The translations under genes were made by a program, and so were the position numbers. The notes beneath the pieces were generated by a model. That model did not search any database, was not told the DNA's origin, and saw only the letters and a program-made list of their open reading frames with translations. From positions 1 to 34,096 of the forward strand of contig ONRP01000026.1 of assembly GCA_900320245.1 (NCBI GenBank): a stretch of 34,096 nt of DNA, written 5' to 3'. Below, in pieces: positions 8,963 through 11,639 of the stretch (its first letter is position 1; each line of letters starts with the position of its first letter). The stretch is from an uncultured Prevotellaceae bacterium. Its GTDB lineage: Bacteria; Bacteroidota; Bacteroidia; Bacteroidales; Muribaculaceae.

Positions 8963-8999
8963 GTTGGGAATTAGAAGTTAGCATCCGCACTCCTTTTAC

Positions 9000-9026
9000 C
9001 TCACGCTAAGACGCAAAGGCGCAAAG
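9000..9026 (-). repeat. Octamer-type intergenic repeat, inverted copy
   Basis: Read on the minus strand this is CTTTGCGCCTTTGCGTCTTA followed by GCGTGAG. It belongs to the same family as the plus-strand copies at 9151-9335 and the copies at 32415-32511. The unit is an octamer, CTTAGCGT or CTTTGCGT, repeated two or three times and closed by GAG. Confidence 0.65.
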
Positions 9027-9083
9027 TTTTTATGATTGCTCGCAAGAACTCGCAAACAATCGGCATCTGCACCCTTGGGGCTT

Positions 9084-9131
9084 AAAGACAACTTTTACAA
9101 CTCTTTAAATGAGTTTGTCCTTCTTGTCTTT
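9084..9131 (+). terminator. Possible terminator hairpin after the BspA-like gene
   Basis: AAAGACAA (9084-9091) pairs with TTGTCTTT (9124-9131), and an inner ACAACTC/GAGTTTGT stem has one bulge. The right arm is T-rich. It resembles the stronger hairpin at 24796-24864, which uses the same AAGACAAC/GTTGTCTT arms. The placement about 120 bases after the stop codon makes it a tentative terminator. Confidence 0.4.
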
Positions 9132-9134
9132 CTT

Positions 9135-9335
9135 GTCTTCTAAAAAAAATTAGCGGCTTAGCGTCTTAGCGTGAGAGTTTTCTGTCGGGCGAGGGCGTAT
9201 ACCCTGTGCAAGTTGTCTTCAAAAAAACTTAGCGTCTTTGCGTCTTAGCGTGAGAGTTTTCTGTCGGGCGAGGGCGTATACCCTGTGCAAGTTGTCTTCA
9301 AAAAAAACTTAGCGGCTTAGCGTCTTAGCGTGAGG
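9135..9335 (+). repeat. Tandem repeat of about 80 bases, two and a half copies
   Basis: Copies at 9135-9214 and 9215-9293, plus a partial third copy at 9294-9335. Each opens with gtcttc and an A-tract, continues with the octamer array (CTTAGCGTCTTAGCGTGAG) and ends with a segment containing the small dyad AGGGCGTATACCCT. Copies 1 and 2 are identical over nearly 60 bases. Together with the inverted octamer copy and the hairpin, this accounts for most of the 560-base spacer 8963-9522; no gene was seen in it. Confidence 0.85.
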
Positions 9336-9395
9336 AGAGAGTGTGTCGGCCTGTAGTTTTTAGTGGTGAAAACTAACATTTTTTTAGGTAAAAAT

Positions 9396-9439
9396 TTGCC
9401 CAAGTCAAAAACTGTGAGTAATTTTATTGCCCAAATCAA
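9396..9439 (+). promoter_or_regulatory. Paired direct repeats, likely enhancer-binding sites
   Basis: TTGCCCAAGTCAA (9396-9408) and TTGCCCAAATCAA (9427-9439) differ at one of 13 bases and start 31 bases apart, about three helical turns. They lie roughly 45-85 bases upstream of the predicted sigma-54 start site, where activator sites for sigma-54 enhancer-binding proteins often sit. Each contains the half-dyad TTGnnCAA. Confidence 0.6.
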
Positions 9440-9455
9440 GCCGTCTTGTGCCCTG

Positions 9456-9471
9456 TGGCATGAAAATTGCA
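9456..9471 (+). promoter_or_regulatory. Sigma-54 (RpoN) type promoter of the YtxH-holin operon
   Basis: TGGCATGAAAATTGCA matches the -24/-12 consensus TGGCACG-N4-TTGCA at all but one position, with GG and GC exactly ten bases apart. Transcription would start near 9482, giving a leader of about 40 bases before the ATG at 9523. No TAnnTTTG element was found in this spacer. A sigma-54 promoter needs an ATP-dependent activator, consistent with the paired repeats upstream. Confidence 0.75.
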
Positions 9472-9522
9472 CGCTTGAACCATAACTAAGTCTTTTATTA
9501 ATTCTTTAAATCACTGTGAGAT

Positions 9523-9723
9523 ATGAAACCTGTTAACATTGTTATGGCTGTTGTCGGCGGCGCTATCGCCGGCGCGGCAGTTGGATTGCTCTTTGCCCCC
9601 GAGAAAGGTAACGACACCCGCAAGCGCATTGCCGATGCACTGCGTGAGCAAGGCGTGAAACTCAAAGGCTCAAAACTCGATAACCTGGTGAACGACATCG
9701 CCGAGGAAATCAAGGGAGAGTGA
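9523..9723 (+). CDS. YtxH-domain small membrane protein 1
   Basis: A 66-residue protein with one N-terminal glycine/alanine-rich hydrophobic helix (about 5-24) ending in the YtxH hallmark LLFAPEKG. A charged tail follows with TRKRIADAL and a short amphipathic C-terminal helix. YtxH proteins are small membrane-anchored proteins tied to general or envelope stress in Firmicutes and Bacteroidetes; their molecular role is not known. It is the first gene of the operon, 30 bases before its paralogue. Confidence 0.82.
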   Translation: MKPVNIVMAVVGGAIAGAAVGLLFAPEKGNDTRKRIADALREQGVKLKGSKLDNLVNDIAEEIKGE

Positions 9724-9753: not shown

Positions 9754-9951
9754 ATGAAAGGATTAAGTGTATTGTATGCATTCCTCGGCGGCGCTCTCGT
9801 GGGCGCAGCGGCTGCTGTACTGTTCGCTCCCGAGAAGGGCTCTGACCTGCGTGCTCGCATCAAGGAGATGCTCAAGAAGAACGGCATCGACTTCAGCGAC
9901 GACGAGGTAGAGCAACTCGTGAAGCAAATCAGCGCACAGATCGAGGACTGA
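9754..9951 (+). CDS. YtxH-domain small membrane protein 2
   Basis: A 65-residue paralogue of the preceding protein. It has the same hydrophobic GGALVGAAAAVLFAPEKG segment near residues 11-28, followed by a charged helix (DLRARIKEML) and an acidic C-terminus. The shared layout suggests tandem duplication, but the tails differ enough that they may have distinct partners. A large intergenic hairpin follows, before the holin-like gene. Confidence 0.82.
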   Translation: MKGLSVLYAFLGGALVGAAAAVLFAPEKGSDLRARIKEMLKKNGIDFSDDEVEQLVKQISAQIED

Positions 9952-9969: not shown

Positions 9970-10010
9970 GACAGGCGGTGTCACTATGACATAGAATGAC
10001 CCCGCCTGTC
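9970..10010 (+). other. Intra-operon RNA hairpin
   Basis: GACAGGCGG (9970-9978) pairs perfectly with CCGCCTGTC (10002-10010), and GTCA/TGAC extends the stem past one mismatch. No T-tract follows, so it looks like an mRNA processing or stabilising element, or a partial attenuator, between the YtxH genes and the holin-like gene. A second, shorter stem sits at 10065-10084, just upstream of the next start. Confidence 0.5.
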
Positions 10011-10094: not shown

Positions 10095-10445
10095 ATGAAC
10101 GAGATAGACTACAAAAAACTGTTCAGCGAGGCACGCAAGTATTTCTCGCTCGAGTGGGACTACACCAAACTCACAGCGGTCGAGAAACTCGCCGTGCTGC
10201 TCTCGGCAACAGCATTCATCGCTGTGGTCATCATCATTGCAACCTATGCGCTGCACTGCCTGTTCTCGGCACTCATCAGCGTGCTGGCAACGGCTCTGGG
10301 ATGCGCATGGGGCGCATACCTGATTGCTGCGGCCATACTGATGGTGCTGCTGCTCGTGGTGTTCGCTTTCAAGAGGCAACTCATCGTGGATCCCATCGCA
10401 CGATTCGTCAGCAAACTGTTCTTAAAACCCGAAGACAATGAGTAG
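10095..10445 (+). CDS. Phage holin family (holin-X-like) membrane protein
   Basis: A 116-residue protein with a charged N-terminus (about 1-30), two long hydrophobic segments (about 33-57 and 60-91) and a basic C-terminal tail. This layout fits the Phage_holin_3_6 / holin-X family, commonly found beside YtxH genes in Bacteroidetes chromosomes. There is no prophage context here, so lysis is unlikely. An inner-membrane role in envelope stress is more plausible, by inference. Its last 8 bases overlap the next gene (ATGAGTAG), implying translational coupling. Confidence 0.7.
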   Translation: MNEIDYKKLFSEARKYFSLEWDYTKLTAVEKLAVLLSATAFIAVVIIIATYALHCLFSALISVLATALGCAWGAYLIAAAILMVLLLVVFAFKRQLIVDPIARFVSKLFLKPEDNE

Positions 10446-10761
10446 CAACACGACCACCACCAATCCCGACACCGTGCAGCAGTTGCCGGTGCTGACCAAC
10501 GATGCCCCCGAAGACTGGCGCGGAATGACGCTCGAGCAGTTGAGACGGGCTCGAGGCAAGGCCCTCGTCAGGCGAGAAGTGGGAAGGGCTGCCATGCAGT
10601 ACAGCATCGACGGCGTCAAGGACAACGTCGCCACCAACGGCGTCAGGGCGCTCATGTTCAGCCCCTCGACGGTGTCGCACCTCAAGACCGCCGACTACCT
10701 GCTCTTGGGCTTCAGGTTTGCCCGATGGCTGTTGTCGATGCGCAACCGCCGTCGCCGCTGA
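10438..10761 (+). CDS. Unknown small basic protein of the YtxH-holin operon
   Basis: A 107-residue protein of unknown function. Residues 1-25 are Ser/Thr/Asn-rich, followed by a charged helix (MTLEQLRRARGKALVRREVG) and a moderately hydrophobic stretch near 86-101. The tail is strongly basic (RNRRRR). No strong transmembrane helix is evident, but the amphipathic C-terminus could lie on the membrane. It overlaps the holin-like gene by 8 bases, which supports a linked function. It is the last gene of the operon. Confidence 0.65.
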   Translation: MSSNTTTTNPDTVQQLPVLTNDAPEDWRGMTLEQLRRARGKALVRREVGRAAMQYSIDGVKDNVATNGVRALMFSPSTVSHLKTADYLLLGFRFARWLLSMRNRRRR

Positions 10762-11048: not shown

Positions 11049-11639
11049 ATGAAGATTTATAATGACAAGAGCGATGACCAGTTGATCTCGCTGTATGTCG
11101 ATGGCACAAACGAGGCCTTTGATGAACTCCTGGAGCGTCACAAAGACCGCATTTACATGTACATATACCATGCGGTAAAAAACGAAGAACTGGCCGATGA
11201 CATCTTCCAGGACACCTTCGTCAAAGCCATCACGACCATCAAGCAGGGACGCTATGTCGAAAACGGACATTTCCCCGCCTGGATTACACGCATAGCCCAC
11301 AACCTGATTATCGATTATTTCCGCCAGACCAAGACCGAGAACCTGCAGTCTACCGACGATGACGAGGTGAACATCCTCAACCGCAAGGAACTCGCCGACG
11401 GCACCGTCGAGGACAACCTGGTGGCCACCCAGATACACAACGACGTGCGCCGACTCATCCGCGCTCTGCCGGCAAGCCAGCGCGAGGTGCTCGTGATGCG
11501 CTACTACAAGAACATGAGTTTCAAGGAAATCGCCGACACCACCGGCGTGAGCATCAACACGGCCTTGGGACGCATGCGCTACGCCATCCTCAACATGCGC
11601 CGTCTGGCCGAGGAGAACAACATCGTCCTCACGATGTGA
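11049..11639 (+). CDS. ECF-family RNA polymerase sigma factor
   Basis: A 196-residue sigma-70 family factor with only regions 2 and 4, as in ECF sigmas. Region 2 spans about residues 20-95 and includes the core-binding and -10 recognition helices (ELADDIFQDTFVKA, then ITRIAHNLIIDYFR). Region 4 (about 137-190) has the helix-turn-helix SFKEIADTTGVSINTALGRM. It should direct RNA polymerase to a stress regulon. No anti-sigma gene lies beside it, so control must be at expression level or from elsewhere. It is a separate transcription unit between the YtxH-holin operon and tig. Confidence 0.9.
   Translation: MKIYNDKSDDQLISLYVDGTNEAFDELLERHKDRIYMYIYHAVKNEELADDIFQDTFVKAITTIKQGRYVENGHFPAWITRIAHNLIIDYFRQTKTENLQSTDDDEVNILNRKELADGTVEDNLVATQIHNDVRRLIRALPASQREVLVMRYYKNMSFKEIADTTGVSINTALGRMRYAILNMRRLAEENNIVLTM

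Follow-up and report, generated by a model that had tools for sequence, protein, structure and literature searches.

In this analysis, a four-gene operon coding for two YtxH proteins, a holin-like membrane protein and a protein of unknown function was examined, and our results suggest that it is probably driven by tandem promoters, a vegetative one (P1) and a sigma-54 stress promoter (P2), the second being fired together with a whole regulon by the lone enhancer-binding protein (EBP) of the genome. We propose that P1 (TTTG-N20-TAATTTTA, start ~9433) would give basal expression, and that P2 (start ~9482) would be fired by RpoN and a single sensor-less, lptE-linked EBP, alongside about 20 other promoters, those of dnaK, groES, clpS, a clpC/A-like gene and an rpoD-like gene among them. 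Protein or envelope stress would then raise the small membrane proteins together with the chaperones. Positions are those of the window, the whole stretch of 34,096 nucleotides analysed, and conservation refers to an alignment of 39 close loci defined below. The features are the following:

9379 to 9394, + strand: T-tract and A-tract directly upstream of P1, conserved (columns 10-24 of the 39-row alignment), which we take to be a possible UP-like element
9395 to 9398, + strand: putative -33 element TTTG of the vegetative-type promoter P1, with TTG in 39/39 loci and N20 to the -7 box, overlapping the start of repeat copy 1
9396 to 9408, + strand: repeat copy 1, TTGCCCAAGTCAA, interpreted as -33 region plus spacer of P1
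9419 to 9426, + strand: putative -7 box of P1, TAATTTTA (consensus TAnnTTTG, the last base differing), predicted start ~9433
9427 to 9439, + strand: repeat copy 2, TTGCCCAAATCAA, spanning the predicted start of P1
9456 to 9471, + strand: sigma-54 -24/-12 element of P2, TGGCATGAAAATTGCA, predicted start ~9482
9482 to 9522, + strand: 5' leader downstream of P2, highly conserved across the close clade (39-row consensus CATTACTAA.GACA...TATTAATTaTTTAATT)
9523 to 9723, + strand: ytxH1, 66 aa, one N-terminal membrane span predicted from hydropathy (PF12732, 48.8 bits, cut-off 37.5)
9754 to 9951, + strand: ytxH2, 65 aa (PF12732, 48.4 bits, cut-off 37.5)
10095 to 10445, + strand: holin-like membrane protein, 116 aa (PF07332, 23.7 bits, below the cut-off of 28.4)
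10438 to 10761, + strand: fourth protein, 107 aa, overlapping the holin-like gene, with no match in the Pfam and NCBIfam searches

Both YtxH proteins exceed the curated cut-off of their family. The third protein had been called holin-like in the earlier sequence-only reading, and it does match Phage_holin_3_6 (PF07332), although its score stays under the curated cut-off. We infer co-transcription of the four genes from their order and spacing. Here 143 bases separate ytxH2 from the holin-like match, and the distance ranges from 25 to 223 bases at 20 other family loci, a comparison made without one incomplete locus (L073); relatives of the holin-like gene occur in 105 of 119 family genomes, and a homologue of the fourth gene in 17 of 30 family loci, our own included. 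A terminator or second promoter inside the operon was considered and rejected, as the four terminator-like and four sigma-70-like matches, against 2.8 and 1.9 in shuffled sequences, included none that was convincing. The interval between ytxH2 and the holin-like gene also holds an inverted repeat, GACAGGCGG...CCGCCTGTC, with no T-run (9970-10010), which may serve in processing or attenuation. According to PMC11204068, the ten most abundant proteins of Bacteroidetes in chicken caecum include one with a YtxH domain, and basal ytxH expression would fit this abundance if the proteins are orthologous.

The element at 9456-9471, described in the sequence-only reading as near-perfect, turned out to be an exact match and the sole one in the window, with GG at -24 and GC at -12 at the proper spacing. 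The pattern TGGCAYRNNNNTTGCW occurs once on the two strands of the 34-kb window (mean of 0.07 over 200 shuffles) and 25 times across the 3.0-Mb genome; with up to one mismatch, 85+99 genome matches were obtained, whereas the reversed pattern gave 44+46, which means that roughly half of the one-mismatch matches are noise. Transcription is predicted to start near 9482 because the GC lies at 9469-9470. The leader that would follow is conserved in the 39 close loci about as strongly as the promoter itself, which exceeds the needs of an ordinary leader, and an TTATTAAC-like stretch is present also at loci with other promoters.

RpoN and an enhancer-binding protein, on both of which the sequence-only reading depended, are present, one of each. 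RpoN gives a single match (PF04552, 1.6e-44), and among five PF00158 matches one is strong (1.1e-65), the next being at 1.4e-9. The single true EBP has 419 aa, with the AAA domain starting at residue 19 and a Fis-type HTH at the C-terminus; a domain search for receiver or sensor domains gave no match, and the protein is thus taken as sensor-less. The gene directly after it is lptE, likewise in 19 of the 20 loci fetched. Across the 101 genomes of the genus, RpoN was found in 98 and the EBP (E of 1e-30 or better) in 96, with one copy in each of 95 and two in G122. One 92% complete genome of the close clade (G173) carries the exact ytxH sigma-54 element and the EBP with no match to RpoN, which counts against our model of P2; its RpoN is perhaps missing through an assembly gap.

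The other exact sites of the genome precede dnaK, groES, clpS, a clpC/A-like gene, an rpoD-like gene and membrane-protein genes, and since ytxH has the same element it would join a sigma-54 proteostasis and envelope regulon. Pfam families behind exact sites comprise ClpS, Cpn10 (GroES), Bax1-I, Pmp3, NfeD, cobalamin adenosyltransferase, P-type cation ATPase, pantoate ligase, glycosyltransferase, CpsB/CapC, a sigma-70 factor with regions 1.2 to 4 (rpoD-like) and an AAA/UVR protein (clpC/A-like), DnaK (behind L038) having been identified by eye from its sequence and not by profile scan. By our judgement, made without a gene caller, 22 of the 25 exact sites precede a plausible gene. Of the 21 exact sites in a relative (G207), 13 stand before homologues of genes that follow our own 25 sites, ytxH included; the other eight do not. 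An exact sigma-54 site stands before an rpoD-like sigma factor gene both in our genome and in G207 (L058, L336). At L207 and other clpS loci the -12 TTTGC is followed about 20 bases on by TAATTTTG, so that the sigma-54 -12 element of clpS may double, as far as sequence can tell, as the -33 of a vegetative promoter. The ytxH module is therefore probably one of about 20 regulon members, with basal expression too: the induced membrane-stress module postulated in the sequence-only reading finds agreement in its stress and envelope setting, through the element shared with chaperone genes, but not as a dedicated induced unit.

The conservation of P2 was followed through the genus, where YtxH1 is found in 86 of 101 genomes, and the upstream DNA of all 86 was read. 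The close clade comprises 39 loci, our own included, with YtxH1 at least 85% identical; they share ancestry and are not independent. All 39 have the sigma-54 element, 38 exactly and one (L098) with one mismatch. Among the other 47 genus loci, 14 have it at up to one mismatch and 33 lack it, and fourteen genus loci with no sigma-54 element carry TATATTTG at -57 to -60. From the 30 best family loci, 23 lie outside the genus, and the element was seen in one of the 19 readable ones (L078, one mismatch); four of the 30 had no readable ytxH1 start. In the best 80 of 185 loci, which overlap the genus genomes and so are not independent of the 86-locus count, it occurs in 24/24 close and 6/56 other loci; these 80 come from MAGs labelled Prevotellaceae, Muribaculaceae or Bacteroidales, several of them of rumen, omasum or reticulum origin. 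Since the holin-like gene is found in most family genomes and the element is scarce outside the genus, we consider the operon widespread, and control by sigma-54 seems, within this sample, mostly limited to the genus. Conservation of both the repeat pair and the -24/-12 element had been expected in the sequence-only reading; they are kept in the closest clade, which places both beyond chance, and are mostly absent beyond it.

That the -24/-12 match is a chance look-alike, with the operon expressed only vegetatively, is thus very improbable. Its absence from 33 of 47 other genus loci and, outside the genus, from 18 of the 19 loci that could be read would fit such a reading, but it recurs in every close locus and, at up to one mismatch, in 53 of 86 genus upstreams against 0.3 in shuffles (four rows, L167, L174, L176 and L179, being offset by a misplaced ytxH1 start); moreover, TGGCA and TTGC are invariant in the 39-row alignment beside a variable N4. 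We regard the predicted sigma-54 promoter at ytxH as real and conserved in the close clade.

What is the role of the repeats upstream? The two TTGCCCAARTCAA copies exist as the sequence-only reading reported them, in position and in their one mismatch: they are 12/13 identical and 31 bases apart, start to start. A pair this alike appeared in 37 of 2000 shuffles of 9301-9523, making it only mildly unusual by itself, and the window overall holds 28 equally alike pairs at 14-60 bases, where 20 shuffles gave 0.85; a repeat search of the window (seed 9) did not have the pair among its listed repeats. We read copy 1 as part of P1 because the TTG-N20 block is conserved (TTG-N20-TA.TTTT[GA] in 39/39 close loci), because 60 of 86 genus upstreams carry TTG-N20-TAnnTTT[GA] (0.9 in shuffles), because the spacing between TTG and TAnnTTTG in our genome's fetched loci and the window peaks sharply at N20 (23 cases; N18 nine, N19 seven, N12 seven, the rest at most four), and because at L160, a locus lacking the sigma-54 element, TACCTTTG comes after TTGCCCAAGTCAA at N20 and makes up a consensus vegetative promoter. 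Three counts argue against P1. Its own TTG-N20-TAnnTTTA is the single case in the fetched loci of our genome; the full TTG-N19-21-TAnnTTTG is found in only 15 of 86 genus upstreams (1.6 expected); and, while TTG and N20 of the Bacteroidota vegetative consensus are kept in 39/39, the final G is missing in 34, our own included. The -7 box itself has TA and TTTT in 39/39, its last base being A in 34 and G in five. The core CC of copy 2 is kept in 34-35 of 39 loci and replaced in five with the -7 box TAATTTTG, possibly a single event. P1, then, accounts for copy 1 and leaves copy 2 unexplained.

The sequence-only reading took both copies as activator sites. Were they binding sites of the EBP activating P2, with the match of TTG and TAATTTTA incidental, one would understand the fixed 31-base spacing (about three helical turns), the retention of both repeat cores in the close clade and the -7 box without the consensus G in 34 of 39 loci. 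However, a matrix built from the 39x2 sites and tested at other sigma-54 promoters gave high-scoring matches near expectation: 2/21 against 2.2 at our own sites (22 in the set, 21 without ytxH), 4/20 against 2.9 in G207, 8/27 against 4.6 at groES and 7/24 against 4.2 at clpS. Mean best scores were slightly above shuffles, in favour of EBP sites (4.5/3.9 own, 5.9/4.9 groES, 6.0/4.8 clpS, 5.1/4.4 G207). The pair was rejected as a regulon-wide operator. None of the listed one-mismatch copies in the genome is near a listed exact sigma-54 site, the TTG-N20-TAnnTTT[GA] pattern occurs also in loci without the sigma-54 element, and groES carries another conserved palindrome. With copy 1 serving as the P1 -33 and the pair not clearly enriched at the other promoters of the lone EBP, the activator-site claim finds no support here, and we judge binding of the EBP to both copies unlikely. 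Alternatively, the pair could be the operator of another regulator, such as a P1 repressor, with no relation to the EBP, since copy 2 covers the predicted start of P1 and copy 1 its -33 element, and since the five loci whose -7 box fits the consensus have lost copy 2; those five, however, may be a single event, no candidate regulator was identified, and this option seems decidedly doubtful. Equally speculative is a two-way switch, in which the EBP or a partner on copy 2 (the P1 start) and copy 1 (-33) would silence P1 while firing P2; if this were true, the operon would pass in a single step from housekeeping control to control by stress.

A candidate operator of the lone EBP is the groES palindrome. 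TGACA-N3-TGTCA, with two mismatches allowed, is present in 27/27 groES loci. In 19 of them its TGACA lies at -36 or -37, and in the other eight at -25, about one helical turn away. These upstreams (L180-L206) show a conserved palindrome of the TGACA-N3-TGTCG type in two positions 11 bases apart. As a regulon-wide operator it was rejected and kept for groES only, given 4/21 own sites against 1.0, 7/24 clpS loci against 2.6 and 5/39 ytxH loci against 2.0. The own sites were counted without L035, L036, L041 and L043, taken as coding, of which L035 was later found to precede a gene with a site in G207 too; the clpS footprint comprises 24 loci, the 4/28 without the element being left out. The groES matrix matched 0/39 ytxH upstreams. 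TGTCA/TGACA half-sites are found in 22 of 39 ytxH upstreams (6.7 expected), about 15 within 27 bases of the -24 element, with none in our own ytxH promoter, where the search with the groES matrix and half-sites found no EBP operator.

Comparable arrangements exist in other bacteria. The enterobacterial phage-shock (Psp) response joins a sensor-less EBP of the PspF type, a sigma-54 promoter and small membrane proteins to envelope stress, and the system described here resembles it in its sensor-less EBP (AAA from residue 19 of 419), its sigma-54 promoter and its small membrane proteins. It differs in that the EBP is linked to lptE, the upstream sites are only putative and PspA (PF04012) has no match in our 90.44% complete genome; homology to Psp was rejected on this last ground. 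In E. coli, yqjCDEK and elaB code for small single-span membrane proteins with a holin-like neighbour and a link to stress, regulated by other factors, and the likeness, in the membrane proteins and the neighbour, is one of description only.

The proposed regulon is of a kind already described in Flavobacterium, and the ytxH operon is an added member. In F. psychrophilum, the sigma-54 regulon (motif SM4) includes groES-groEL, dnaK, grpE-dnaJ, htpG, clpB, lon and envelope genes; there as here, -24/-12 promoters precede chaperone and envelope genes and an EBP gene is paired with lptE, whereas three PF00158 proteins are present there and one here, and 'ytxh' and 'holin' are absent from the main text of that paper, whose Table 2A is a selection (PMC9723704). 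For Bacteroides thetaiotaomicron, PMC12316311 cites sigma-54 dependence of GrpE and GroES, which gives sigma-54 chaperone genes in a Bacteroidales; the available text of that source has no occurrence of 'ytxh' and describes no ytxH operon or tandem promoter. Our literature search, of limited coverage and not implying absence from print, yielded no paper joining YtxH with sigma-54 in Bacteroidetes, nor Bacteroid YtxH with a holin.

Our proposal would place a common, uncharacterised membrane operon of Bacteroidales in a sigma-54 proteostasis and envelope regulon, a testable hint at its function. The genus offers a simple system, in which most genomes have a single sigma-54 and a single sensor-less EBP next to lptE, with a regulon of about 20 sites, and in relatives the same operon has a promoter of the vegetative type, of the sigma-54 type or one of each; this simplicity and variety make the signal read by the EBP directly testable.

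Two observations concern the DNA around the operon. Just upstream of the promoter region, within 8999-9335, a 43-base element (TTAGCGGCTTAGCGTCTTAGCGTGAG type) occurs three times at intervals of 79-80 bases, with an inverted partner at 8999-9035, and downstream of the operon, at 11049-11639, lies a gene for an ECF-type sigma factor.
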